Source of the DNA: Commensalibacter oyaizuii
GTDB taxonomy: Bacteria; Pseudomonadota; Alphaproteobacteria; Acetobacterales; Acetobacteraceae
Assembly: GCF_029953265.1 (NCBI RefSeq)
Contig: NZ_JASBAO010000001.1
Coordinates: forward strand, 1,440,001 to 1,504,000
Reading direction: 5' to 3'
DNA length: 64,000 nucleotides
The notes beneath the pieces are model-generated. The model was not told where the DNA came from. It was given only the letters and a program-made list of their open reading frames with translations, and ran no database searches. Every line of letters begins with the position of its first letter. The first letter of the stretch is position 1. This document shows, piece after piece, positions 1-13,017 of this stretch. The translations under genes were made by a program, and so were the position numbers.

Positions 1-1125
1 CTAGCAAATACTCATGCTATTGCAGCGTATGGATTGCAGGTCAAAGAAACAGGGGATCGGTGTGTTTCTTGGTTACCTTTATACCATGACATGGGATTAG
101 TTGGTTTTTTTATTACTCCGATGACATGCCAATTAACCATTGATCTTCTACCCACACGTGACTTTGCACGACGACCTCATGTATGGCTTGATTTAATCAG
201 CCGTAACAAAGCAACCATTTCTTATAGTCCATCATTTGGATATGAACTATGTGGTCGTAGAGCACCCTCCTCCACCCTTGATCTTGATTTATCCTCTTGG
301 CGATCAGCAGGAATAGGAGGCGATATGATTCGTCCCCATATTTTAGAACAATTCGCAGAGCAATACGCTTCATATGGTTTTAATCCAAAAGCGTTTGTTG
401 CCAGTTATGGCATGGCTGAAGCAACATTAGCACTGAGCTTTGCACCTTTAAACACAGGGATCAAAACAGATACTGTTGACTTAAACGTTCTTGAAACTGA
501 CAGAATTGCTAAGCCATGCAACGATCCTAACATAACAACAAGAACCTTTATTCTCTGTGGTCCCATATTACCTAAACACGAAATAGAAGTGAGAGACGAA
601 CAAGGAAAACCTGTATCAGAACGAGTTGTTGGTAGCATTTACGTGCGTGGCCCCAGCCTTATGAAGGAATATTTTAATCAGCCTGAAGAAACAAAACGTG
701 TTTTAAGTGATGATGGTTGGTTAAAGACAGGTGATCTGGGATATATTTTAGACAATGAAATCGTTATTACAGGTCGTGAGAAGGATTTGATTATTATTAA
801 CGGTCGTAATATCTGGCCTCAAGACCTTGAATGGGCTGCAGAACAAAATTTTTCATCTCTAAGAAGTCGAGATGTAGCCGTTTTTTCAGTCGATACTGAT
901 GAACACGAATCCATCGTTGCATTGGTGCAATGCCGGGCCATTGATCCAGAGGAACGCAAAAAACTACAAGAGGAAATGACCCATTTATTTAGGCGTCAAC
1001 ATGGCGTAGATGTCTCTGTAATTTTGGTCCCACCCCATAGTTTGCCACAAACTTCTTCGGGAAAATTAACCCGTGCGAAAGCAAGAAAAATGTTGTTAGA
1101 TGGGGAATTTAATTTAAGCGCTTGA
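1..1125 (+). CDS. Fatty acyl-AMP ligase, C-terminal part (5' end outside window)
   Basis: Adenylate-forming enzyme that would activate a fatty acid as acyl-AMP and pass it to an acyl carrier protein. The reading frame is open from base 1, so the gene starts left of the window; about 374 C-terminal residues are seen. Motifs include SWLPLYHDMGLVG and YGMAEATLA, both typical of the FAAL branch, then a TGDLGY box, GREKDLIIINGRN and a C-terminal SSGKLTR carrying the catalytic lysine region. The FAAL subtype is favoured over acyl-CoA ligase because a dedicated ACP follows 132 bp downstream, then serine palmitoyltransferase. In Caulobacter an acyl-ACP synthetase likewise sits beside the sphingolipid genes. 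The natural substrate is inferred. Confidence 0.88.
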   Translation, partial: LANTHAIAAYGLQVKETGDRCVSWLPLYHDMGLVGFFITPMTCQLTIDLLPTRDFARRPHVWLDLISRNKATISYSPSFGYELCGRRAPSSTLDLDLSSWRSAGIGGDMIRPHILEQFAEQYASYGFNPKAFVASYGMAEATLALSFAPLNTGIKTDTVDLNVLETDRIAKPCNDPNITTRTFILCGPILPKHEIEVRDEQGKPVSERVVGSIYVRGPSLMKEYFNQPEETKRVLSDDGWLKTGDLGYILDNEIVITGREKDLIIINGRNIWPQDLEWAAEQNFSSLRSRDVAVFSVDTDEHESIVALVQCRAIDPEERKKLQEEMTHLFRRQHGVDVSVILVPPHSLPQTSSGKLTRAKARKMLLDGEFNLSA

Positions 1126-1500: not shown

Positions 1501-1513
1501 AAAGAGCGATTTG

Positions 1514-2713
1514 ATGGATATTTTTACTAAATTTAAAACCTTGGATAGCGCTTATGATAAATTACTATCAGTTTCAAAGCATGATCCTTTCGGTACTACA
1601 ATTGAAAAAACGCTCTCCGCAACGACAGGTATAATTCAAGGCAAAGAAACTCTCCTTTTTGGTACCAACAACTATTTAGGGCTTAGCCAATCTGAAAATG
1701 CACGTAAAGCTGCTGCTGAAACAGCGTTACAATATGGAGTAGGTACAACAGGTTCGCGAATAGCAAATGGCACCTATTCCTTACATCAAAGTTTGGAACG
1801 TGATCTAGCTGATTTTTTTAATCGTCGTTCTTGTATGGTTTTTTCCACAGGATATCAAGCAACCTTAGGGATGGTTTCCACGCTAGCAGGTAAAGATGAT
1901 TATTTGTTTCTAGATGCAGACTGTCACGCCAGCATTTATGATGGTAGTCGGTTAAGCCAAGCCCAAATTATTCGTTTTCGTCACAATGATGCTGATGACC
2001 TGCGTAAACGCTTACGACGTCTAGGGGATATTCCTGGTATTAAACTGATCGTAGTCGAAGGTGTTTATTCAATGTTTGGGGACATTATTCCTCTTAAAGA
2101 ATTTGCACAGGTTAAAAAGGAAGAAAATGCCTATTTAATGATCGACGAAGCACATTCTTTTGGTATTTTTGGTGAAAATGGGCGTGGTATCGCTGAACGT
2201 GATGGAGTCGAACAAGATGTTGATTTCACCGTTGGTACTTTCTCTAAAAGCCTAGGTACGGTTGGGGGATACTGCGTATCTGATTATCCCCAAATGGATA
2301 TGCTGCGCCTATGCACCAGACCATATATGTTTACAGCATCCCTTCCCCCAGAAGTCATCGCAGCAACGAGGGAGAATCTTAAACTTATTAAAGATCACCC
2401 TGAGTTACGTGATAAACTTCGGGCAAATGCTGAACGATTCTACCACGGTTTACAACAAGCGGGTTTTCAAACAGGGCCTGATATCAGTTCTGTTATTTCT
2501 GTTATTTTAGAAGATGTTGCACAGGCTGCACAATTTTGGAACAAAGTCCTTGAATTAGGGGCTTATATTAATCTAAGTTTACCACCTGCAACGCCTGATA
2601 ACAGACCACTACTACGTGCCAGCATTGCCGCAGCCCACACTAGCGAACAGATTGATCAATTGTTAAAAATCTATATTCAAGCTGCAAAAGATGTATGTTT
2701 ACCGTTAAAGTAA
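1514..2713 (+). CDS. spt: Serine palmitoyltransferase (alpha-oxoamine synthase)
   Basis: PLP enzyme condensing L-serine with a long-chain acyl thioester to give 3-ketosphinganine, the first step of sphingolipid synthesis. The family is clear from GTNNYLG near the N-terminus, the PLP-stacking His in DCHAS (about residue 138), DEAHSFG (about 211-217) and the PLP lysine in GTFSKSLG (about 245). The serine after DEAH matches bacterial SPTs; BioF-type enzymes usually carry DDAHG or DEAHA here. Length of 399 residues is normal. A TTG lies directly before the ATG at 1514; ATG is preferred, with AAAGAG upstream. An unlinked bioB is in the window but no other bio gene, which also argues against BioF. 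Confidence 0.88.
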   Translation: MDIFTKFKTLDSAYDKLLSVSKHDPFGTTIEKTLSATTGIIQGKETLLFGTNNYLGLSQSENARKAAAETALQYGVGTTGSRIANGTYSLHQSLERDLADFFNRRSCMVFSTGYQATLGMVSTLAGKDDYLFLDADCHASIYDGSRLSQAQIIRFRHNDADDLRKRLRRLGDIPGIKLIVVEGVYSMFGDIIPLKEFAQVKKEENAYLMIDEAHSFGIFGENGRGIAERDGVEQDVDFTVGTFSKSLGTVGGYCVSDYPQMDMLRLCTRPYMFTASLPPEVIAATRENLKLIKDHPELRDKLRANAERFYHGLQQAGFQTGPDISSVISVILEDVAQAAQFWNKVLELGAYINLSLPPATPDNRPLLRASIAAAHTSEQIDQLLKIYIQAAKDVCLPLK

Positions 2714-2714
2714 C

Positions 2715-3659
2715 TTAACGTTTAAAAACACCCTGGCGATATAACTTTAGTAAAACCCAGGGTGCACTAAACAACGGGTGACGTTCTTGAAATGGAGTCA
2801 ATTGAATATCAATACCTCTATGTCGCTTAATTTTCCAAGCAATATACTGCGCCCCCCCCTGAAATGTAAAAGCTGCTTTGATTAATCGCGCTACATTTAA
2901 AGGCCGACCGATCCTGACACGTAACCACCATTTACGTTGTGCCTGCTTTTTAATTTCAGTATTTACATCTAATTTTAGCAAATATTGATTATCTTCATAA
3001 AAGTTAATTCCCATTTGTTGCCATGCTGATTTTAAAAGTTGAGTAAAATAATCTTCTCGATTCTGTATAATTAACGAGGGTCGATTTTTAGATTCAACTC
3101 TTAACTCCGCTGCATAAGTATGAGAAAATAAATTACACCAATAATCAGTGGCTGTCCCTTCGTTAGGACCAAGGTAGGCTGCCCACCAAGCAGCAGTACC
3201 AACAGCACGTATCAAGCAGCGAAATAATGCTTGTTGGCTATAATCATCACGACTCCATATAATTTTAACAGGTTGGCAAAAACGTGCCCACATTGTCGTA
3301 TCAAACGATTGAATCCCTGTCGCATACCGTAATTGCTGCAAAGAAAGAATTGCCACTTTTGCTCTTAATTTCCCTAACGAATCGGAAAATTCGTGATATT
3401 CTATGTTTGGAGGTAGATATTTATTCGCTAACTTATGGAAAGAAGGGTGCTTGTACCAATCTGATAGGGATTCAAAAACAATATAAAAATCAAATAACCC
3501 TGTTAAATCTTTTTTCCACAAAGTTGATCCATAATACAAAACCCCAACTGGTTTTGTCTTTACAATAATAGATTCGACAAATTGTATGACTTCATCAGGA
3601 ACATCATCTATTTTTAAGGATGTTTCCAACAACTGAGGAACTGATAACGACTTTTCCAT
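2715..3659 (-). CDS. Tam41-like nucleotidyltransferase (possible CDP-lipid synthase)
   Basis: A 314-residue soluble protein. Residues 42-62 hold YYGSTLW followed by GLFDFYIV and a conserved W (DWYKHP). This order matches the nucleotidyltransferase core of mitochondrial Tam41/MMP37, the peripheral CDP-diacylglycerol synthase (YGS-x-(V/L), then DF-x-V, then W). A later stretch, from KVAILSL to RFCQPVKIIW, resembles the Tam41 segment ending in LHKPV. The gene starts 2 bp after the stop of the lipid kinase at 3662-4636, so the two are coupled. A plausible role is CTP-dependent activation of a phosphorylated lipid. Catalytic activity and substrate are inferred. A run of eight G lies in the coding strand near the 3' end (2852-2859). 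It converges on spt with 1 bp between stops. Confidence 0.6.
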   Translation of the reverse strand: MEKSLSVPQLLETSLKIDDVPDEVIQFVESIIVKTKPVGVLYYGSTLWKKDLTGLFDFYIVFESLSDWYKHPSFHKLANKYLPPNIEYHEFSDSLGKLRAKVAILSLQQLRYATGIQSFDTTMWARFCQPVKIIWSRDDYSQQALFRCLIRAVGTAAWWAAYLGPNEGTATDYWCNLFSHTYAAELRVESKNRPSLIIQNREDYFTQLLKSAWQQMGINFYEDNQYLLKLDVNTEIKKQAQRKWWLRVRIGRPLNVARLIKAAFTFQGGAQYIAWKIKRHRGIDIQLTPFQERHPLFSAPWVLLKLYRQGVFKR

Positions 3660-3661
3660 TA

Positions 3662-4636
3662 TTATAAACGTACAAATGAAAATTCAGGGCCAACCGATAA
3701 TACAACAGTTTGTTTTTCCCCTGTATCAAAATGTTCTCCGTCCAAAATTATTTCTTGATTTATGTTTAATACAATTTTTTGAGCAATACCGCTTTGATAA
3801 GCGGGATTCTGTCGCAACCAATTAGGAACCTTCCCCCTTAATAAAGAAAAACAAGCAGCAATCAACCTGGGAGGATACGCCTTAACATTCAAATAATGTA
3901 ATCGTTGATCCCGAGAATTCCCCCCCCAGAAAGGCCACATCCCATTAGACATGCTTTGTAAGGTGGTTGCCAGAAATAAAAAGGTATGTTCTTGCTGCAT
4001 TTTTTGAGAGTCAATTTGGATATTGCAAAATTCTCCCTGAAGCCAATTTCCCCTTGTTTGTGGGAAAAATAATTTTAATAAAGCTGTAATAATTGTAGCA
4101 CCAACAGCCCAATCATGAGGAAAATTCTTCAAAATTGTTGGGCCATGGGCAATATTAATCGCCCTCGTAAAAGCAGCCGCCCCTTGAAACATTCCTAGTA
4201 CAGCTGGTTTAGATGCATCTAACCATTCGATTTTTAAAGCATGGCGATGTTGAACTGAATTAATCAAACGGTTACGCTCCGACAAAATTTTGATACGCTG
4301 CAACGCTGGAAAACCACGCACGCCAAACCCGATGTCCTTAGCAATTAAATTCGTATTTCCTGAAGGCAAAATGACCAAATATGGCATTTTATTAAAATCA
4401 TATGAATGATAAATTGCAGTCATTACACGACTAATTGTACCATCTCCACCATCAACAATAATGCAGTTTACATTTTCTTTGGCAAATTGGGCTACAACGT
4501 CCATGACCTCTTGAATTGAAGTGGGAACACAATAATAATCTCCTAACCACTCTTTAGCAAACTGAGAAAAATCTAAATCCTCTTTTGCATTTAATCGGCT
4601 GGTTGGATTTTTGATCAAGGCAATTTTTTGATTCAC
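3662..4636 (-). CDS. Diacylglycerol-kinase-family lipid kinase (ceramide-kinase candidate)
   Basis: A 324-residue protein of the DAGK/sphingosine-kinase/YegS family. The N-terminal KIALIKNPTSR corresponds to the family NP-x-SG nucleotide site, here with R in place of G. DGGDGTISRV at 62-71 is the signature GGDGT loop, and a C-terminal ILDGEHF matches the conserved DGE. Family members phosphorylate diacylglycerol, sphingoid bases or ceramide. Beside serine palmitoyltransferase, ceramide or the long-chain base is the likely substrate; Caulobacter CpgB, a ceramide kinase, is a known bacterial precedent. It is first in a leftward operon with the Tam41-like gene. Substrate is inferred. Confidence 0.75.
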   Translation of the reverse strand: MNQKIALIKNPTSRLNAKEDLDFSQFAKEWLGDYYCVPTSIQEVMDVVAQFAKENVNCIIVDGGDGTISRVMTAIYHSYDFNKMPYLVILPSGNTNLIAKDIGFGVRGFPALQRIKILSERNRLINSVQHRHALKIEWLDASKPAVLGMFQGAAAFTRAINIAHGPTILKNFPHDWAVGATIITALLKLFFPQTRGNWLQGEFCNIQIDSQKMQQEHTFLFLATTLQSMSNGMWPFWGGNSRDQRLHYLNVKAYPPRLIAACFSLLRGKVPNWLRQNPAYQSGIAQKIVLNINQEIILDGEHFDTGEKQTVVLSVGPEFSFVRL

Positions 4637-4831: not shown

Positions 4832-5710
4832 TTGAAACGCTTTACGATCGCTCATATCTCTGACATTCATTTGCCACTAGAAAGCATTCAGTTTTCAAAG
4901 TTATCGCTTTGTAATAAACGATTTTTAAGCTTTTTATCATGGAAAAAAAGACGTCTAATTTTACAAAAAAAAATGTTAGATCAAATCATTAACGATATAG
5001 CCAATCATAAACCTGATTTAGTTGTCATTACGGGCGATTTAACCAATCTTGCATTACCTGAAGAATTCCAGCAAGCTGCAGAATGGCTAAATAACTTACC
5101 TTTCTCTAAAATTCGGGTTATTCCTGGAAATCATGACGCCCTTGTTAGTACCAAATGGTACAATAGCTACGCCTATTGGACACCATGGACCAAGGCCTAC
5201 AGCAATCAAGATTATCCAATCGTAACAAAAACAGACATGACCGCTTTAATTGGTATAAATTCAGCTGTACCAACCTTACCCCTTTTTGCCAGTGGACATA
5301 TTGATAAAAACCAATTACAACGTTTACGCAGTATCCTTTATCAAACTAAGAAAGAGGGACTGTTTAGAATTGTTGTACTACATCATCCCCCTGTTTCTGG
5401 GATCGTCACAAAAAGAAAAGCCCTGAGAAACAGAAAGAAACTGCAACAAATTCTATTAGAAGAAGGGGCAGAAATGATTTTATATGGCCACGTTCATAAA
5501 ACAATGACACAAAAATTTCTTAACACAGATATTCCTTTATTAGGCATTGCTTCTGCTTCATCCAACTCCACACGCCCACAACGACAAGCAGCTTGGCGCA
5601 AAATTACGCTAGAGCGAGTAGATAATCAACTAAACGTAAAATCAACTGTAAGAGCCCTGGATAAAAATCAACAATTTTTTGAAAAACATTCCTTCTATCT
5701 AAACCATTAA
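4832..5710 (+). CDS. Calcineurin-like metallophosphoesterase
   Basis: A 292-residue dimetal phosphoesterase. Motifs in order: SDIH (Asp11, His13), TGDLTN, PGNHDAL, HHPP and GHVHK, the full calcineurin-fold set. No signal peptide is visible, so it is probably cytoplasmic. It is the first gene of a rightward run into the LptF/LptG-like permeases (14 bp to the next start), so a role in dephosphorylating a lipid or nucleotide-lipid intermediate is plausible but unproven; LpxH-type pyrophosphatases belong to the same fold. Start is TTG at 4832 with AAGGA about 9 bases upstream. The ATG at 4824 is out of frame. Confidence 0.82.
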   Translation: MKRFTIAHISDIHLPLESIQFSKLSLCNKRFLSFLSWKKRRLILQKKMLDQIINDIANHKPDLVVITGDLTNLALPEEFQQAAEWLNNLPFSKIRVIPGNHDALVSTKWYNSYAYWTPWTKAYSNQDYPIVTKTDMTALIGINSAVPTLPLFASGHIDKNQLQRLRSILYQTKKEGLFRIVVLHHPPVSGIVTKRKALRNRKKLQQILLEEGAEMILYGHVHKTMTQKFLNTDIPLLGIASASSNSTRPQRQAAWRKITLERVDNQLNVKSTVRALDKNQQFFEKHSFYLNH

Positions 5711-5724
5711 AATCTAGTAATCCC

Positions 5725-6960
5725 TTGTCCAAAAATAACGTACCCTCAGCACATAAAAAAACAATATGGTCTTATGTGCAGTTAAAGCTTCTAGATCATT
5801 ATTTCTTAGCGCAAGCTTTTCCAAGTTTTTGCATCTCTTTAGGCATTATTCTTGCTGCGCTGATGCTGGAACGTCTTTTGGTACTACTTGACCTGCTAGC
5901 CGCAGACGGTAGCCCGTTAGGTACATTTCTTGGATTGCTCGCAGATTTAATTCCTCACTACCTGGGCCTGGCAATACCATCGGCTTTATGTGTATCTGTC
6001 TTTTTAAGCATCAGACAAATGAGTCTCAATAACGAAATCGACGCATTATTAAGTTCTGGTGTCTCTTTATTTCGTTGTGCGCGCCCTTACGTTATAGTTG
6101 GCGGCATTATTAGTTTTCTTTGCATTATTTTGTATGGCTATGTTCAACCTTATGCACGCTATGATTTTCGCGCGGCTTTCTTTTACGCTTCTCATGCGGG
6201 GTGGGTACCCAACATACAAAGCCACATGATCATTAAACCAGATGATCACCTGGTTATGATCGTAGATAAAGCAACAAAACATGGAACACATCTTTCAGGG
6301 ATTTTTATTCAACAAAAAACGAAAAATGAAAAAAATCAACCTGTTCAACATTTTATTGTAGCCAAAGAAGGCGAATTTCATACAGCTCAAAATAGGGCCA
6401 AAGTTCAATTGGATCTATATAACGGTCAAAATCTTACCCTTAATCCCGATGATAACAATAATATTACCAATTTTGATAAAGCAACAAAGACCCTGCAACA
6501 ATCCCACAAGCGTTTAAGTTATCGAGACAGAGGGACTGGTGAACGCGAATCAACTATTAAACGTGAACTGACTATTACAGAATTATATCAACAATTACAG
6601 CACCATACGAGTAAAATCTCTATATTAGATATTAAAGCAGAGTTTCATTTCCGATTGGTTAGATCTTTGTCCATTATTTGTATTCCTATTTTAGCAACAG
6701 GATTAGCAATTACGAAAAAACGCAAAAAAAGTAATTTGGGATTCGCCATTGCAGCAGTTGCATTGGTTGGATATGATCATATTCAGCAATTTGGATCAGA
6801 TATGGTCGCCAGCGGTCATTATTCTGCTTTGGTAGCATTATGGCTTCCCCTAGCTGTATTTTTTTGTATATGTTATACGACCCTGTTACTGAAAAATGGT
6901 TTATATGCGTTTTATCCATCTTTTTTATTAAACCGTTCTGTAAAAAAGATACGTAAATGA
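5725..6960 (+). CDS. LptF/LptG (YjgP/YjgQ) family permease, first copy
   Basis: A 411-residue membrane protein of the LPS-exporter permease family. Hydrophobic segments cluster at the N-terminal third and the C-terminal third, flanking a soluble central domain (about 150-300), the usual LptF/G layout with a periplasmic jellyroll. SLNNEIDALLSSG matches the cytoplasmic coupling region of YjgP (E-x-x-AL-x-x-x-G). It overlaps the next permease by 4 bp (ATGA at 6957). Location between a phosphoesterase and a fatty acid hydroxylase inside a sphingolipid locus suggests a paralogue dedicated to exporting that lipid rather than LPS. It could still be the cell's only LptF. The TTG start at 5725 has a weak ribosome site and is uncertain. 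Confidence 0.8.
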   Translation: MSKNNVPSAHKKTIWSYVQLKLLDHYFLAQAFPSFCISLGIILAALMLERLLVLLDLLAADGSPLGTFLGLLADLIPHYLGLAIPSALCVSVFLSIRQMSLNNEIDALLSSGVSLFRCARPYVIVGGIISFLCIILYGYVQPYARYDFRAAFFYASHAGWVPNIQSHMIIKPDDHLVMIVDKATKHGTHLSGIFIQQKTKNEKNQPVQHFIVAKEGEFHTAQNRAKVQLDLYNGQNLTLNPDDNNNITNFDKATKTLQQSHKRLSYRDRGTGERESTIKRELTITELYQQLQHHTSKISILDIKAEFHFRLVRSLSIICIPILATGLAITKKRKKSNLGFAIAAVALVGYDHIQQFGSDMVASGHYSALVALWLPLAVFFCICYTTLLLKNGLYAFYPSFLLNRSVKKIRK

Positions 6961-8057
6961 CGAAATCTTGGTTTAAAAAACATACCTTAATCATTTATTT
7001 GTCTATAAAGCTACTAGGTACTGTTTTGGGTACTGCCATTTTACTTACAGCAATCATGGAAGCGTTGGCGTTACTAGACCAAATGTCCGTTATCTTGGAA
7101 AGACATTTAGGTATAATGGGAGTTGTCCATTATATGGCGTTGCGTTTACCTTTATTATTCAGCTCTATACTACCCCTTAGTATGTTAATTGGTTCTATTA
7201 TTACCTTAACACAATTAACGATTAATAATGAAATCACCATGTTACGTTCAGCTGGTTTATCTGCGGTTGGATTGCTAAAAAAATTATTGCCTGTAACCTT
7301 GTTTATCAGCGTTATTTGTTTTCTATTTTACGATCAAATTACCCCAAAAACAGAATTAAATTTGGCTATATGGTGGAATAAGACAAATCCTACCCCTGAA
7401 AAAGGGAAATCTTTTTACTTCTATCAAAAGTTAGATATTATTAATGTCGACTATATTGCCTATGGAGGCAATAAAATTTCAGGTTTGACAGTTATAAAAC
7501 GCCACGACTTATCCCATTTACGATCGATTTTAACTGCAGATTCAGCAACATATCAAGATCATCAATGGATTCTATCAAATGCAAAAATCTTGGAAATAAA
7601 TCCATCAATCCCACTAAAGTTTAAAAAATTAACTGCCTACCCAGACAATATCTGGCCAATAGAAATTACGCCACGCACTTTGGTTGAACTGTCATCTCCA
7701 ACAATACCTCAATCTATCCAAAGTATGTTTTCACAATTATCTAATGTGCATCCTTTTCGCACACCAACGAACAATTTAAAGACATCTATATGGGAACGGT
7801 TTTTTTTACCTTTTACTTTTGTTATAATGTTGGTCATAGCGGTACCAGTAACATACATCCCCCCTCGTGCTGGGTTTAAAAGCTGGCTGCCTATTTATTG
7901 CTTAGGGTGTGGTCTATTATTTATTATTTTTCAAGAAGTTCTAAGAGCTTTGGGAAAAGCAGGAACTCTACCTGCCCCTGTTGCAATTATACCTTCTTTT
8001 ATAATATTTCTCTTCGCCACCAGTACTATTATTTTAATGATTGAAGAAAAACAATGA
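6957..8057 (+). CDS. LptF/LptG (YjgP/YjgQ) family permease, second copy
   Basis: A 366-residue partner of the preceding permease. It has N-terminal membrane helices, TINNEITMLRSAG (coupling-helix motif of the YjgP/YjgQ family), a soluble middle domain and three C-terminal helices. LptF and LptG work as a heterodimer with the LptB ATPase; no LptB-like gene is in this window, so an ATPase must come from elsewhere. The ATGA overlaps at both ends (6957 and 8054) show translational coupling with the first permease and the hydroxylase. That coupling is the best sequence evidence that export and hydroxylation belong to one pathway. Confidence 0.8.
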   Translation: MTKSWFKKHTLIIYLSIKLLGTVLGTAILLTAIMEALALLDQMSVILERHLGIMGVVHYMALRLPLLFSSILPLSMLIGSIITLTQLTINNEITMLRSAGLSAVGLLKKLLPVTLFISVICFLFYDQITPKTELNLAIWWNKTNPTPEKGKSFYFYQKLDIINVDYIAYGGNKISGLTVIKRHDLSHLRSILTADSATYQDHQWILSNAKILEINPSIPLKFKKLTAYPDNIWPIEITPRTLVELSSPTIPQSIQSMFSQLSNVHPFRTPTNNLKTSIWERFFLPFTFVIMLVIAVPVTYIPPRAGFKSWLPIYCLGCGLLFIIFQEVLRALGKAGTLPAPVAIIPSFIIFLFATSTIILMIEEKQ

Positions 8058-8878
8058 ACAACCAGTCTATTTTTCAAATTATGCGAAATCAAGAGCTTCG
8101 CTCGGGTCGCAGCTATGATCTTGGCAAAATGGATTTAAAACAATTGTGGGTTGCCTATTTAACTCATGGTACTATTTTGCTTTATTTTGGCCTTATTATC
8201 GCCAGTATTATTGGTATATATTATACTTTCACAGGATGGATCCCTGTACTCAGTTCTGTTGTTGTTATGATATTTGGCTTCTCTCTAATATGGTATATCA
8301 TCCACCGCTGGATTATGCATGTTGCTTTTTTATACCAAATTAAATGGACAGCATCGCTTTGGAAACGGATCCATTTTGACCATCATCAAGATCCACATCT
8401 GTTAAATGTGTTATTTGGATCGCCCTTAAACACATTACCAACTATTTTTATTGTTGGTGGTGGACTTGGATATCTCGTCGGTGGTTTTTCTGGTGCATTT
8501 GCGTCAATTGGAACAGCTTTATACATGACCTGTTTTTATGAGTTTTTTCACTGTATTCAACATCTCGGTTACAAACCAAAATCAAAATACGTGCTGCGTA
8601 TCAAACAACTTCATGTAATGCATCATTTTCATTATGAAAAAGGTAACTACGGAATCACAAATTATTTTTGGGATAAATTATTTGGAACTTTTTACGAAGA
8701 TACAAAAAGTCGCCCCCGCAGCCCCACTGTATTTAATATAGGATACGATGTAAAACAAGCAGAGCGGTATCCTTGGGTAATGTTGAAAACTGGGGCCCCT
8801 CCTCGTGATCGTCCTGCAGGTTCTAACTTTCGCGAGCAAAAAAAGGCCACCTCTAACAATGATCAAAAGGCTGCATAG
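8054..8878 (+). CDS. Sterol desaturase/fatty acid hydroxylase superfamily protein
   Basis: A 274-residue integral membrane diiron enzyme. The His clusters are HRWIMH (84-89), HFDHH (107-111), FHCIQH (166-170) and HVMHHFHYEKGNYG (187-200), giving the full histidine-box set of the superfamily. Two hydrophobic pairs surround them. Related enzymes hydroxylate ceramide fatty acids or sphingoid bases (Scs7, Sur2). The start overlaps the upstream permease stop. In this locus the likely role is hydroxylating the acyl chain or long-chain base of the sphingolipid; the position hydroxylated cannot be told from sequence. Confidence 0.87.
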   Translation: MNNQSIFQIMRNQELRSGRSYDLGKMDLKQLWVAYLTHGTILLYFGLIIASIIGIYYTFTGWIPVLSSVVVMIFGFSLIWYIIHRWIMHVAFLYQIKWTASLWKRIHFDHHQDPHLLNVLFGSPLNTLPTIFIVGGGLGYLVGGFSGAFASIGTALYMTCFYEFFHCIQHLGYKPKSKYVLRIKQLHVMHHFHYEKGNYGITNYFWDKLFGTFYEDTKSRPRSPTVFNIGYDVKQAERYPWVMLKTGAPPRDRPAGSNFREQKKATSNNDQKAA

Positions 8879-8887
8879 GGAAATAAT

Positions 8888-9652
8888 ATGGAACGTGAAA
8901 CGATTAACGCTTTAATCTTGGCAGGGTCTAGAAAAGGACAACAAGACCCCTTGGCTATGCATACTCACGTTTCTCACAAAGCGATTATCCCTATTCTAGG
9001 GCGACCAATGATTCATTATGTTGCTCAAACATTATCTAAAATTGTAAATATTGAAAAAATAGCGGTAAGTATTGAAAAACCAGTCGTTGTTCAGGATATC
9101 TTGCCTGAATATATACAATATTTATCCGCAGCTTTAGGCCCCAGTGCCAGTGTTGTTGAAGCTATTCAAACACTAAATACCCCCTTACTTGTTACAACTG
9201 CAGACAACCCTTTACTTCAACCTGAATGGGTAAATTACTTCCTAGCAGAAGCTGAAAAAGCAAATTGTGACATTGCTATTGGTATCGCCCTTAAAGAACA
9301 AATTGAACGCGATGTTCCCAATACCAAGCGAACATATATTAAACTTGCTGATGGTGCTTTTTCGGGATGCAACATATTTTTATTTAGAACCCCACAATCC
9401 ATACAAGTCGCTAAACTATGGCAAACCTTAGAACAACATCGGAAACAACCTGCAAAAATAGGATACTTGCTAGGATACAAGATCATACTGCGATATTTAC
9501 TACGTTGCTTGACCAGACAAGTATTAAAGAAAAGAATTTATAAATTAACCAAAGCAAAGCTACATTTCGTTGTCATGCCGTGGGGGCAGGCGGCTGTGGA
9601 TGTTGACAAACCTGAAGATTTGGCCTTGGTAACATCCCTAATTCATAGTTAA
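8888..9652 (+). CDS. MobA-like nucleotidyltransferase
   Basis: A 254-residue protein beginning NALILAGSRKG, a variant of the nucleotide-binding LAGG-x-x-x-R loop of MobA-like NTP transferases. K (HKAIIPILGRP) and the TTADNPLL segment correspond to the phosphate-contact lysine and the metal-binding aspartate. Such enzymes transfer NMP to a sugar phosphate, alditol phosphate or cofactor. It starts 9 bp after the hydroxylase and ends 5 bp before a glycosyltransferase, so it probably activates a headgroup precursor for the lipid made here. The exact substrate is unknown. Confidence 0.7.
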   Translation: MERETINALILAGSRKGQQDPLAMHTHVSHKAIIPILGRPMIHYVAQTLSKIVNIEKIAVSIEKPVVVQDILPEYIQYLSAALGPSASVVEAIQTLNTPLLVTTADNPLLQPEWVNYFLAEAEKANCDIAIGIALKEQIERDVPNTKRTYIKLADGAFSGCNIFLFRTPQSIQVAKLWQTLEQHRKQPAKIGYLLGYKIILRYLLRCLTRQVLKKRIYKLTKAKLHFVVMPWGQAAVDVDKPEDLALVTSLIHS

Positions 9653-9657
9653 TACCA

Positions 9658-10752
9658 ATGCGTATTGCATACATTATTAACTCACTAGAAGGTGGCGGTG
9701 CAGCGTTCCCTGTGCCTGCCATTTTATCATTGATGCGATCTTATGGTGCGGAAGTTAAAGTTTTTGCACTTCTGCGTAAAGACGGAAAAGCTTTATTACC
9801 TCTCCAACAAGCAAACATTCCTGTTAGCATCAGAGAGGGAGGTTTAAAAGATCATTTACCGGCTTTGACATGGTTGAATCAACAAATACAAAATTATAGA
9901 CCCACTCATTTATGGACTTCCCTTACACGCGCAACATTGTTGGGGCAATTAGTTGGAAAGCATCGTCGACTGCCTGTAACCAGTTGGCAGCATGCAGCAT
10001 ATTTGAAACCATGGAATCTACGTTTGTTAAAAGCAACAAAGAATCTTTCTCAACTATGGATTGGGGACTCTCAACGCATTACCGCATTAACTAAACAACG
10101 ATTGGGTATTCCTGACGAGAAAATCATCACCTGGCCTATTTTTAAAGCACTTCCCTACACAAAATCTGCGAGGCCTTGGCAGGCAGCAGAAACAATTAAA
10201 GTTGCCTCTATGGGGCGCTTACATCCAGTCAAAGGATACGATGTATTAATTCAAGCGGTACGTTGTCTGCAACAAAAACCCTCTATTCCACCTTATAAAA
10301 TCTTCGTATACGGAGAAGGTGCAGAACACAACGACCTGCAAGCACTAATCGAACAATATCGTTTACAAAACTATATCGAGTTGGTCGGCTTCACCAACGA
10401 TGTGAACGAAACTTTATCTAACCATCATCTTTATGTACAACCGTCTCGATCTGAAGGCTTTTGCGTTGCCGCCCATGAAGCTATGCAGGCTGGACTGCCC
10501 GTCATAGCAAGTGCCGTTGGGGAGCTGCCTTTTTCTATTCAAAATAACCAAACAGGGTTAATTGTCCCTCCTAATGACCCCCAAGCTCTGGCAGAGGCTT
10601 TGTATAGCTTACTATCTATTCCAAACCAACTATATACCATGGGGCAAACAGCACGTGATAAAGTCCTAAACGACTTTTCCACTCAGCATTTTGAAACTAT
10701 AGGGCGAAACATTTTTGATCAAATGAACAGTTTTACTAAAACCTATTATTAA
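9658..10752 (+). CDS. GT4-family glycosyltransferase
   Basis: A 364-residue retaining glycosyltransferase of GT-B fold. The N-terminus has NSLEGGGAAF, a glycine-rich loop. The C-terminal domain has MGRLHPVKGYD, VYGEGAEHNDL, LVGFTND and SRSEGFCVAAHEAMQAG, where the EGF-x-x-x-x-EA pattern binds the sugar nucleotide. No membrane helix is seen. It is the last gene of the rightward run from 4832 and overlaps the convergent gene by 4 bp. The acceptor is likely the locus lipid. The sugar donor cannot be assigned. Confidence 0.85.
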   Translation: MRIAYIINSLEGGGAAFPVPAILSLMRSYGAEVKVFALLRKDGKALLPLQQANIPVSIREGGLKDHLPALTWLNQQIQNYRPTHLWTSLTRATLLGQLVGKHRRLPVTSWQHAAYLKPWNLRLLKATKNLSQLWIGDSQRITALTKQRLGIPDEKIITWPIFKALPYTKSARPWQAAETIKVASMGRLHPVKGYDVLIQAVRCLQQKPSIPPYKIFVYGEGAEHNDLQALIEQYRLQNYIELVGFTNDVNETLSNHHLYVQPSRSEGFCVAAHEAMQAGLPVIASAVGELPFSIQNNQTGLIVPPNDPQALAEALYSLLSIPNQLYTMGQTARDKVLNDFSTQHFETIGRNIFDQMNSFTKTYY

Positions 10753-11675
10753 AAAACTGGACTTTTAATACAGCGTTTAACATAATAGTTACTATCCGTA
10801 ATTAAACGATGAAACGGCCTTTTAATTATTTGCTTTGCATCAATCAATGTATAGTCGCCTGCCGCACTTAACGTGTGTATGCCATTTCTATATGAATCAA
10901 AGATAGTATTTGTTTTCAAACTACCAACAACATGAGCTTCAAAAGAATTAGGCGTTAATGTAGTTATCTGCAAAAATGATAAACTTCCCCCATAAGTTCT
11001 AGTACAGTTTTGGGTCGGTAAAATAATACCTTTCTTCGTTACCACGGCGTTTCCACCAGGGCGTGCACTAAAAGGTGTAATTCTGACAGGATTTGACGGA
11101 TGTAAAGACCAACTGCCCATCAAATCATCTGTATAAGCAACAGATAGATTACCCTGACGACTATATCCTGAATCAGCAGATGTATAAAACATCCACCATA
11201 ATCCCTGATAAAAAGTAACTGTAGGATCAATAACAATTTCTGGAAAATTAAATTGTTTGACCTTTTCCCATCGATACGGAAATTCGATCGCTTTGTATAA
11301 TGTCGTTTTTCCAGATTTATAGGCCTCGGGCAGCATATAAATTTCGCCTCGATCCTCTATAATCATGGGATAGGATAAATGCCAAGGTTCTTGTAATACA
11401 GGACGTCGATCCAAAAGTTGTAACAAATGATTAAATACTAAAAGCTCTATGTAACCGTGTCTATTCCGATAATCATAAGCTTCTGCAAAAATATATAGCT
11501 TGTTATTCTTATATAACCCAAATGGATCTGCTAGAAATTTTAACTTTGGCTCTTCATCCAACCAATACACATGTTGTACTTCTTGTTTAGAAATCACCTC
11601 GTGAATCGGTGCTTTAATAATACCTAAACGCCAAATATCTGTCTCGAAAATAGACACAACGACTTTATTCCCCAA
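10749..11675 (-). CDS. GINT1 N-terminal-like beta-propeller protein (GH43-like fold)
   Basis: About 308 residues with repeated short blocks: KFLADPFGLYKNNKLYIFAE, WHLSYPMIIEDRGEIYMLPE, DPTVTFYQGLWWMFYTS and SARPGGNAVV. This pattern resembles the domain found N-terminal in plant glucosamine inositolphosphorylceramide transferase 1 (GINT1), a five-bladed-propeller-like fold that also occurs in bacterial saccharide clusters. Its function in bacteria is not established. Its presence beside a sphingolipid locus is striking, because the plant protein acts on a sphingolipid. TTG at 11675 overlaps the upstream gene by 11 bp; an alternative GTG at 11657 has GGGGA upstream and may be the true start. 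Confidence 0.6.
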   Translation of the reverse strand: MGNKVVVSIFETDIWRLGIIKAPIHEVISKQEVQHVYWLDEEPKLKFLADPFGLYKNNKLYIFAEAYDYRNRHGYIELLVFNHLLQLLDRRPVLQEPWHLSYPMIIEDRGEIYMLPEAYKSGKTTLYKAIEFPYRWEKVKQFNFPEIVIDPTVTFYQGLWWMFYTSADSGYSRQGNLSVAYTDDLMGSWSLHPSNPVRITPFSARPGGNAVVTKKGIILPTQNCTRTYGGSLSFLQITTLTPNSFEAHVVGSLKTNTIFDSYRNGIHTLSAAGDYTLIDAKQIIKRPFHRLITDSNYYVKRCIKSPVF

Positions 11676-11973
11676 TCTCTTGAATCTCAGCCAATGTTAA
11701 TAGTTGCATTGGCTGTTCTAAATATGGTCCAATAATTTGCACAAGTTGTTTGAAATGTGCTGTCTGACTGTGCGTCTCAATAGCTTCACGACTCATCCAA
11801 TGCTCTATAAAAACAACACGGTTTTGATTATTTTCTTCGAAATGAGCAGAATAAAAAAAATTTCCAGCCTCCAACCTGGATTGCTTGACGCATTCCTTTA
11901 CAGCATTTTTAACATGTTCCCATGAATTAGGTTTTAAATCTAAAACTGCTACTAATCTTAACTCTTGTGACAC
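11665..11973 (-). CDS. Antibiotic-biosynthesis-monooxygenase (ABM) fold protein
   Basis: A 102-residue small protein of the dimeric alpha/beta-barrel ABM type: ELRLVAVLDLKPNS opens the first strand and a central FIEHWMSREAIETH matches the (E-x-W)-x-x-x-x-A-x-x-x-H core. Homologues include quinol monooxygenase YgiN and heme-degrading proteins. The open frame extends up to 12084, but GTG at 11973 is chosen because AAAGGA lies 7 bases before it and homology starts there; the upstream 37 codons look like untranslated DNA. It is probably co-transcribed with the GINT1-like gene. A link to the lipid pathway is unproven. Confidence 0.7.
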   Translation of the reverse strand: MSQELRLVAVLDLKPNSWEHVKNAVKECVKQSRLEAGNFFYSAHFEENNQNRVVFIEHWMSREAIETHSQTAHFKQLVQIIGPYLEQPMQLLTLAEIQEIGE

Positions 11974-12222
11974 AATATATCCTTTACAATATCTCACATC
12001 AGATTGAATAAACTTAAAAATATATCTATATTGATATCCTCTGTAAAAAAGAATAAATTCTTTATCAACAACGATAGATGTCATTATTTATTCAAAATTA
12101 ATCTATATATTTTTAAGTAACTTTCTGACATTGTGTTTAACATATCAGAAATTCTGCTTATTAAGAATATATTCATCATCATCGATAATCCGAACTTTTT
12201 TATACTCAAGGTTAAACTAATC

Positions 12223-13017
12223 ATGTCAGATGCCCTTTCCCGCCGATTCGAAGCAGCACAAACCATCGTACAAAAAGCAGCGGATATGGCTCTGGCCATG
12301 CGTCCTGCCCCTGGTGGCCCCCAGGGTTCCTTAAAACATGCACAAGATTGGCTAACCGAAACAGATGGTAAAGTTGAGTCCTTTATTTCTCAAGAAATGA
12401 AAGCTCTTTTTCCAGATGATGGTTTCCAAGGTGAAGAAGAGGGGCAAACACGCACAGGCTCTTTGAAATGGGTTGTCGACCCTATTGATGGTACTGCAAA
12501 TTATGCTCGTGGGCGCAACAGATGGTGTGTATCTTTGGGGTTAATGGATGGTGATACCCCAGTATTAGGTGTTGTTGCAGCCCCTTGTGTACAAGAATTT
12601 TATACTGCGCGCTTAAACCACGGGGCATTTATGAACGGCAAACCCATTCATGCTTCTCCAGTGAAAGATCCCAAGATCTCAATGATTGAACTGGGTTGGA
12701 GCCATGTTAGTAAAAGAGAAGAGTTTTTAAAACACGCAGATGCGATTCTGAAAACAGGAGCTATGATTCGCACAATAGGGTCAGGAACTATGTCATTGGT
12801 CGACGTTGCCAGTGGCAGATCGGATGGTCATTTCGAAATGGCGATTAATCTATGGGATGTTGCTGCGGCACTTGTTTTGTTAAAAGAGGCTGGGGCTTAC
12901 ACTTCTTCATTTTTAAAAGATGGAGGCCTGCACCAGCCAACCCCTGTTTTAACTGCGGCACCAGGGATTGCAGATTTATTATCAAAAACTGTTAATATCC
13001 CTCTAGAAGCACCATAA
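12223..13017 (+). CDS. Inositol monophosphatase family protein (HisN/SuhB type)
   Basis: A 264-residue Mg-dependent sugar phosphatase. Motifs: GEEEG (metal-binding Glu), VVDPIDGTANYARG (DP-I/L-DGT) and NLWDVAAALVLLKEAG (WD-x-A). The ATG at 12223 (MSDALSRRF) is chosen over the longer frame from 12133 because homology begins there and AAGG lies upstream. In alphaproteobacteria this family includes inositol-1-phosphatase and the histidinol-phosphatase HisN; sequence alone does not settle which. Its position near a GINT1-like gene makes an inositol role possible but not shown. Confidence 0.85.
   Translation: MSDALSRRFEAAQTIVQKAADMALAMRPAPGGPQGSLKHAQDWLTETDGKVESFISQEMKALFPDDGFQGEEEGQTRTGSLKWVVDPIDGTANYARGRNRWCVSLGLMDGDTPVLGVVAAPCVQEFYTARLNHGAFMNGKPIHASPVKDPKISMIELGWSHVSKREEFLKHADAILKTGAMIRTIGSGTMSLVDVASGRSDGHFEMAINLWDVAAALVLLKEAGAYTSSFLKDGGLHQPTPVLTAAPGIADLLSKTVNIPLEAP

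Follow-up and report, generated by a model that had tools for sequence, protein, structure and literature searches.

A predicted Tam41-fold nucleotidyltransferase paired with a putative ceramide kinase in Commensalibacter oyaizuii: a candidate for CDP-ceramide formation in bacterial phosphosphingolipid synthesis

How ceramide-1-phosphate becomes ceramide phosphoglycerate (CPG) is an open step of a pathway that helps Caulobacter live without lipopolysaccharide, and the same pathway bears on Caulobacter polymyxin sensitivity. This step is raised by a locus in a 64,000-nucleotide stretch of the Commensalibacter oyaizuii genome (contig NZ_JASBAO010000001.1, positions 1,440,001 to 1,504,000; hereafter the window). 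Here, open reading frames (ORFs) for a lipid kinase (3662-4636, minus strand, 324 amino acids, GTG start) and a 314-amino-acid nucleotidyltransferase (2715-3659, minus strand, ATG start) are two bases apart and both head towards a serine palmitoyltransferase gene (spt; 1511-2713, plus strand). Judged from the sequences, the pair is cpgB-cpgC of the bacterial phosphosphingolipid pathway, a known pair with a new member. The 314-amino-acid protein is a distant relative of Tam41, and the nearest solved structures are cytidine diphosphate (CDP)-diacylglycerol synthases. Its fold and conserved residues, together with published genetics, point to CDP-ceramide formation by CpgC as the likeliest mechanism, one that we regard as probable.

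A first-pass annotation, made from the DNA letters, had described a DAGK-family kinase with a GGDGT loop 2 bp from a nucleotidyltransferase with Tam41-type motifs, next to serine palmitoyltransferase, and had suggested that the two could phosphorylate ceramide and then activate it with CTP. The coordinates and spacing of the pair were confirmed, and the neighbouring gene passes the NF047599 model (609 bits; cut-off 500). PF00781 (DAGK_cat) recognises the kinase (E 1.1e-10; 41.6 bits, cut-off 23.6). The GGDGT loop is present in it, and GGDG[T/S] is kept in 98 of 104 clustered kinase relatives. In Caulobacter, the kinase CC_1160 has been named CpgB (CCNA_01218) and CC_1161 has been named CpgC (CCNA_01219) (PMC12275187). 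Caulobacter CpgB has been shown to phosphorylate ceramide (PMC10331486); like the window kinase, it is a DAGK-family protein with a GGDG loop, encoded beside cpgC and near spt. It comes, however, from another lineage, and the likeness is one of domain, position and co-occurrence, not of sequence to sequence. Position and co-occurrence bear out the CpgB type of the window kinase, which, by analogy with the Caulobacter enzyme, would make ceramide-1-phosphate. Caulobacter CpgC is likewise placed between spt and cpgB, and both it and the window protein are predicted to resemble CDP-diacylglycerol synthases (CC_1161 by InterPro; PMC11324152). Orthology with CC_1161 is assigned from gene order and co-occurrence.

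Co-occurrence was scored in a class sample of 289 alphaproteobacterial genomes (cut-offs: cpgC, E <= 1e-3; cpgB, E <= 1e-10; spt, E <= 1e-90). These genomes are related by descent, and Fisher values for co-occurrence overstate the evidence. Genes for cpgC are present in 34 genomes, cpgB in the same 34, and spt in 40, including all 34; no genome in the sample has cpgB or cpgC without the other or without spt. In two genomes (G181 and G244), cpgB and cpgC lie on separate contigs with cpgC well within a long contig, so the genes are unlinked there yet both retained. They are also on separate contigs in G085, G260, and G285, for which short contigs are a possible cause. Gene neighbourhoods were compared at 121 loci, comprising 40 unnamed (from 40 of the 48 other cpgC-positive genomes), 80 named (the best 80 of at least 565 relatives), and the window; at least three records are counted twice (L091/L080, L146/L077, and L147/L085). 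A cpgB gene is found in 102 of these neighbourhoods, always on the same strand as cpgC (102/102) and in 101 cases no more than 300 bases away. The pair runs opposite to spt in the window and likewise in 91 of the 94 loci having spt. As far as sequence data go, co-occurrence with cpgB and spt fits ceramide-1-phosphate as the CpgC substrate. Six of the 289 genomes (G071, G124, G137, G203, G304, and G338) have spt without cpgB or cpgC at the cut-offs used and are candidates for making sphingolipids without these phosphate head groups.

Because the single 314-amino-acid protein falls below Pfam detection, it was linked to Tam41 through its relatives, by comparing profiles, and through its predicted structure. 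Two alignments were used, one of 45 sequences (the window protein and 44 relatives, from 44 of the 48 other cpgC-positive genomes) and one of 51 (47 of the 80 named loci, the relatives L028, L049, and L171, and the window protein); they have the window protein, L028, and L049 in common. Residues Y43, G44, and D57 are invariant in both (45/45 and 51/51), and the Tam41-type motifs noted in the first pass are thus not chance. An AlphaFold2 model built from the 45-sequence alignment has high confidence (predicted local distance difference test, pLDDT, 95.2; predicted template modelling score, pTM, 0.91). In a Foldseek search of the PDB with this model, ranks 1 to 5 are all Tam41 chains (6ig4, 7ecd, and 6ig2; E 1.6e-9 to 1.1e-7), with target-normalised template modelling (TM) scores of 0.55-0.63 and identities of 12-15%. 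Four of these chains are of the mitochondrial enzyme, the structure of which comes from fission yeast (PMC7018664), and one is from a Firmicutes bacterium with CTP-Mg. Aminoglycoside-type nucleotidyltransferases, the next Foldseek family, match far more weakly (from E 3.3e-5, TM <= 0.38) and were rejected.

Profile comparison of the family with two Tam41 chains in hhalign gives E values of 6.7e-5 (165 columns) and 1.1e-4, and a decoy, an unrelated nucleotidyltransferase family, gives 0.78. YGS, D57, K101, R126, P130, Y182, R187, and E189 are aligned to identical residues in both Tam41 chains, and these shared residues are invariant or nearly so across the family. Matches to PF09139, the Tam41 family, were found in 2 of the 45 sequences (E <= 10) and in 8 of the 51 (E <= 0.01), although three of the latter (L028, L049, and L171) had been included as known matchers. 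L028 passes the curated cut-off (28.8 bits; cut-off 24) and L049 falls just under it (23.1 bits). The outcome that the first-pass annotation would have taken as refutation, no significant match to Tam41, applies to the single sequence searched against Pfam and does not apply to the family or to the predicted structure.

The window protein shares its domain plan with Tam41/TAMM41, a mitochondrial and bacterial CDP-diacylglycerol synthase: a nucleotidyltransferase domain comes first and a second, helical domain after it. The order of the motifs YGS, Asp, Lys, RF-x-x-P, and Y-x-x-[DE]-x-R is also common to both, and a basic C-terminal region is a probable further parallel. The window protein differs in its shorter loops and in lying below Pfam detection, and the expected lipid substrate is predicted to be ceramide-1-phosphate rather than phosphatidic acid. 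Of the three acids typical of the fold, Tam41 is reported to retain just one (PMC11646218). In the CpgC family, D57 is kept in 45/45 and 51/51 sequences; the second acid of the DxD pair is Tyr (Y59) in 44/45 and 49/51 and Ile in both Tam41 chains, a comparison that covers two of the three positions. Residues 234-314 contain 18 Lys or Arg and 3 Asp or Glu; in the 45-sequence alignment the net charge ranges from 9 to 19. This strongly basic region, as read from its composition, may bind membranes.

Genetic evidence in Caulobacter places CpgC in the same step. Loss of CC_1161 makes CPG and CPG2 undetectable and raises ceramide moderately (PMC11324152), and the same 2024 paper states that the InterPro domain of CC_1161 suggests a CDP-diacylglycerol synthase that might make nucleoside diphosphate (NDP)-activated ceramide. 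Papers from 2025 and 2026, the latter a preprint, continue to describe the way CpgC works as unidentified, and the schemes in them assign CpgC to the step from ceramide-1-phosphate to CPG with the intermediate unnamed (PMC12275187 and PMC13228409). The first-pass annotation named no established pathway with such an intermediate; the view that none had been proposed is not supported, given the 2024 suggestion (PMC11324152). The idea of CDP-ceramide is therefore already in print as a suggestion; no published test of it was found, nor, among open-licence papers, any paper naming CDP-ceramide. What is new here is that one paper's suggestion becomes a structure-based prediction with named residues. 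The first-pass interpretation is thus partly supported, in that the types of the two proteins are borne out and the novelty of the route is not. If the prediction is true, CDP-ceramide would be a liponucleotide named in none of the open-licence papers searched, and the enzyme making it would be the bacterial equivalent of Tam41 acting on a different, new substrate.

In the mechanism that we propose, the kinase would phosphorylate ceramide with ATP to give ceramide-1-phosphate, as the biochemistry of the Caulobacter protein suggests for the window. The 314-amino-acid Tam41-fold enzyme would then move CMP from CTP onto ceramide-1-phosphate, yielding CDP-ceramide and pyrophosphate; this step, predicted from the fold and conserved residues of the protein and from the published genetics, would parallel the action of Tam41 on phosphatidic acid. 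A transferase would presumably swap CMP for the head group to give ceramide phosphoglycerate or a related lipid, and transport of the lipid to the outer membrane may be aided by the LptF/LptG-type permeases encoded nearby.

Several observations weigh against this proposal. Searched alone, the 314-amino-acid protein hits neither Pfam nor NCBIfam models at E <= 1, and Pfam still gives nothing at E <= 10. The hhalign probabilities for the two Tam41 chains are 64% and 57%, and PDB sequence-profile searches with the 45-sequence alignment, the 51-sequence alignment, and the relative L028 recovered no Tam41 chain at E <= 10. Within the aligned part, the invariant residues P84, W124, and Q129 differ from those of Tam41, and E185 stands opposite an Asp in Tam41. 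In both genome searches with PF09139, none of the 14 control genomes, Caulobacter among them, gave a match. A PF01066 search of the window genome made no dedicated CDP-ceramide transferase visible, and ceramide-1-phosphate as substrate and CDP-ceramide as product are assignments that we infer. The PF09139 genome searches returned no match in the window's own genome (0/1) and one among 398 genomes of the phylum (E 2.2e-4, under the cut-off); a miss in such a search is uninformative, because the 14 control genomes gave no match either. The sole match, L171, is a cpgC relative beside a kinase read from the ORFs as DAGK type.

A further nucleotidyltransferase of the locus has to be considered alongside the pair. 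This MobA/CofC-like protein (NTP3; 8888-9652, plus strand), assigned from its position, genome distribution, and model, stands at the position of CC_1153. At E <= 1e-8, NTP3 is present in 32 of the 34 genomes with cpgB and cpgC and in no other of the 289, making it nearly as strictly linked as the pair itself; it was missed in two assemblies, one of 660 contigs and one of 230. The NTP3 model has a pLDDT of 95.8, and among the 50 structural matches listed the closest is a Thermus protein of unknown function. The other listed matches are sugar- or polyol-phosphate nucleotidyltransferases (those of CMP-sialate, KdsB, IspD, TarI, and GlmU type, plus a small number of related enzymes), and many of these use CTP. 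The NTP3 profile weakly touches 3-phospho-D-glycerate guanylyltransferase (7p97, E 0.0015). CC_1153 has been placed at the step from CPG to CPG2, and its mutant also grows slowly and contains much ceramide (PMC11324152). Despite this placement, NTP3 also occurs in genomes without CpgA, a CDP-alcohol transferase considered below. Another CTP-using enzyme of the same head-group pathway is the phosphoglycerate cytidylyltransferase CpgD (CCNA_01210), which takes phosphoglycerate as substrate and whose described relatives are other cytidylyltransferases rather than Tam41 (PMC12275187 and PMC13228409). A scan for CpgD motifs in the 121 neighbourhoods (for the window, its first 20 kb) gave one candidate, in L100.

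The linkage of NTP3 in 32/34 genomes and its weak profile match to 7p97 would fit a reading in which CpgC joins the head group to ceramide-1-phosphate more directly, with no free CDP-ceramide, for instance from an NDP-glycerate made by NTP3 or by activating glycerate itself. The published schemes, which draw CpgC between ceramide-1-phosphate and CPG with no named intermediate (PMC12275187 and PMC13228409), also agree with direct joining, as does a window genome in which no separate transferase is visible. However, Caulobacter mutants of CC_1153 and CC_1152 still produce CPG (PMC11324152), as does a CpgD deletion (PMC12275187), and therefore their NDP-glycerate is not required for CPG in Caulobacter. 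The fold of the 314-amino-acid protein is, moreover, nearest to enzymes that put a nucleotide onto a lipid phosphate. We consider direct joining unlikely, though it deserves to be kept in view.

Given that the nearest solved structures are CDP-diacylglycerol synthases, and that diacylglycerol is phosphorylated by CpgB in vitro at a level similar to ceramide (PMC10331486), the 314-amino-acid protein could instead use phosphatidic acid as an additional CDP-diacylglycerol synthase, with the kinase feeding it from diacylglycerol. A CdsA-type protein (PF01148, E 1.0e-50) is, however, encoded in the window genome, and cpgC was never found without spt in the sample (34/34), which makes a plain CDP-diacylglycerol synthase unlikely. 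Phosphatidic acid is also unchanged on deletion of cpgB in Caulobacter (PMC10331486), and deletion of CC_1161 removes phosphosphingolipids (PMC11324152); on this evidence, such a role seems improbable. It would be more surprising still if the pair acted on the sphingoid base, giving CDP-sphinganine ahead of N-acylation. A dihydrosphingosine kinase has been described in bacteria (cited in PMC10331486) and the pair adjoins serine palmitoyltransferase, but Caulobacter CpgB phosphorylates ceramide (PMC10331486) and mutants of the pair accumulate ceramide (PMC11324152).

If CpgC makes CDP-ceramide, a transferase must be found to use it. Using the CpgA-type PF01066 protein of L080 as reference, we detected a CpgA-type CDP-alcohol transferase in 19 of the 34 genomes with cpgB and cpgC and in no other of the 289. 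Unlike in the setting of Caulobacter CpgC, a search of the whole window genome gave no cpgA (E <= 1e-10), and CpgA is missing from all three genomes of the window's genus in the 289-genome sample. The window genome has just two PF01066 proteins, one of PgsA type (TIGR00560, 152.6 bits against 109.1) and one of PssA type, which scores slightly under the TIGR00473 cut-off (105.4 bits; cut-off 107) and adjoins phosphatidylserine decarboxylase. In the window's family, where 16 of the 19 genomes seen with cpgC were scored, 13 likewise have exactly two PF01066 genes. Among the 15 genomes with cpgB and cpgC and without CpgA, seven (G000, G040, G216, G314, G217, G225, and G322) have exactly two PF01066 genes and eight have three to five. 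These counts agree with the genetics of Caulobacter CC_1159, which is dispensable for CPG (PMC11324152). Since no dedicated transferase is visible, the last step would fall to a housekeeping enzyme or a transferase of another family, or else the product is not CDP-ceramide.

The small-set genomes, with cpgB, cpgC, NTP3, no cpgA, and two CDP-alcohol transferases, are the place to seek the missing transferase. It is conceivable, if doubtful, that in many sphingolipid-making Alphaproteobacteria the cpgB/cpgC pathway is a second liponucleotide route, leading from ceramide through ceramide-1-phosphate to CDP-ceramide in parallel to the CDP-diacylglycerol route, and that in two-transferase genomes (PgsA and PssA type) one of the housekeeping phosphatidyltransferases also accepts CDP-ceramide as donor. 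For ceramide phosphoglycerate, PssA would then be the enzyme to consider first, on the ground that its usual acceptor, serine, differs from glycerate at carbon 2 only.

The counts above come from a genome-wide search, because the CpgA cluster in the neighbourhoods (57 members, 38 loci) is mixed, some loci having two or three paralogues. Three genomes (G095, G223, and G321) have three CpgA-like transferases each, the two extra copies lying about 15 kb or less from cpgC, and longer or different phosphoglycerate head groups are a possible role for these copies. Relatives of cpgC were also found in three contigs with Nitrospirales names (L119, L148, and L163; metagenome-assembled genomes), and the mixed CpgA-type cluster has a member close by.

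The order of the surrounding genes matches the Caulobacter sphingolipid locus. There, the order is CC_1165 aasR, 1164 cerR, 1163 acp, 1162 spt, 1161, 1160 ceramide kinase, 1159, 1158 phosphoesterase, 1157, 1156 and 1155 LptF2/LptG2, 1154 cerS, 1153 CofC-like nucleotidyltransferase, and 1152 (PMC11324152; the acp and spt numbers are also given in PMC9386255). The window agrees for aasR, acp, spt, 1161, 1160, 1158, 1156, 1155, and 1153; counterparts of cerR, 1159, and 1157 are absent from its locus order, and different genes stand at the 1154 and 1152 positions. Apart from the pair, all of the following genes are on the plus strand. The locus opens with the 3' part of a fatty acyl-AMP ligase gene that starts upstream of the window (1-1125; NF006624, 609 bits against a cut-off of 600), of AasR type by position, and an acyl carrier protein gene adjoining spt (1258-1500; PF00550, E 2.3e-11), of AcpR type by position. 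Beyond the kinase are a calcineurin-like phosphoesterase at the CC_1158 position (4832-5710; PF00149, E 1.1e-18), an LptF-type permease at the LptF2 position (5725-6960; PF03739, E 8.5e-60), and an LptG-type permease at the LptG2 position (6957-8057; PF03739, E 5.6e-58). A fatty acid hydroxylase superfamily gene (8054-8878; PF04116, E 7.5e-21) overlaps lptG by four bases and stands at the CC_1154 position; its product is a candidate enzyme that may hydroxylate the lipid.

Near the locus, window positions 10749-12084 encode a GINT1_N protein (PF24793, E 1.8e-33) and an ABM monooxygenase, followed by an inositol monophosphatase family gene (12133-13017). PF24793 is named for the plant glucosamine inositolphosphorylceramide transferase. 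Counting the window, GINT1_N is present in 11 and the ABM monooxygenase in 4 of the 121 loci, in the window's family only.

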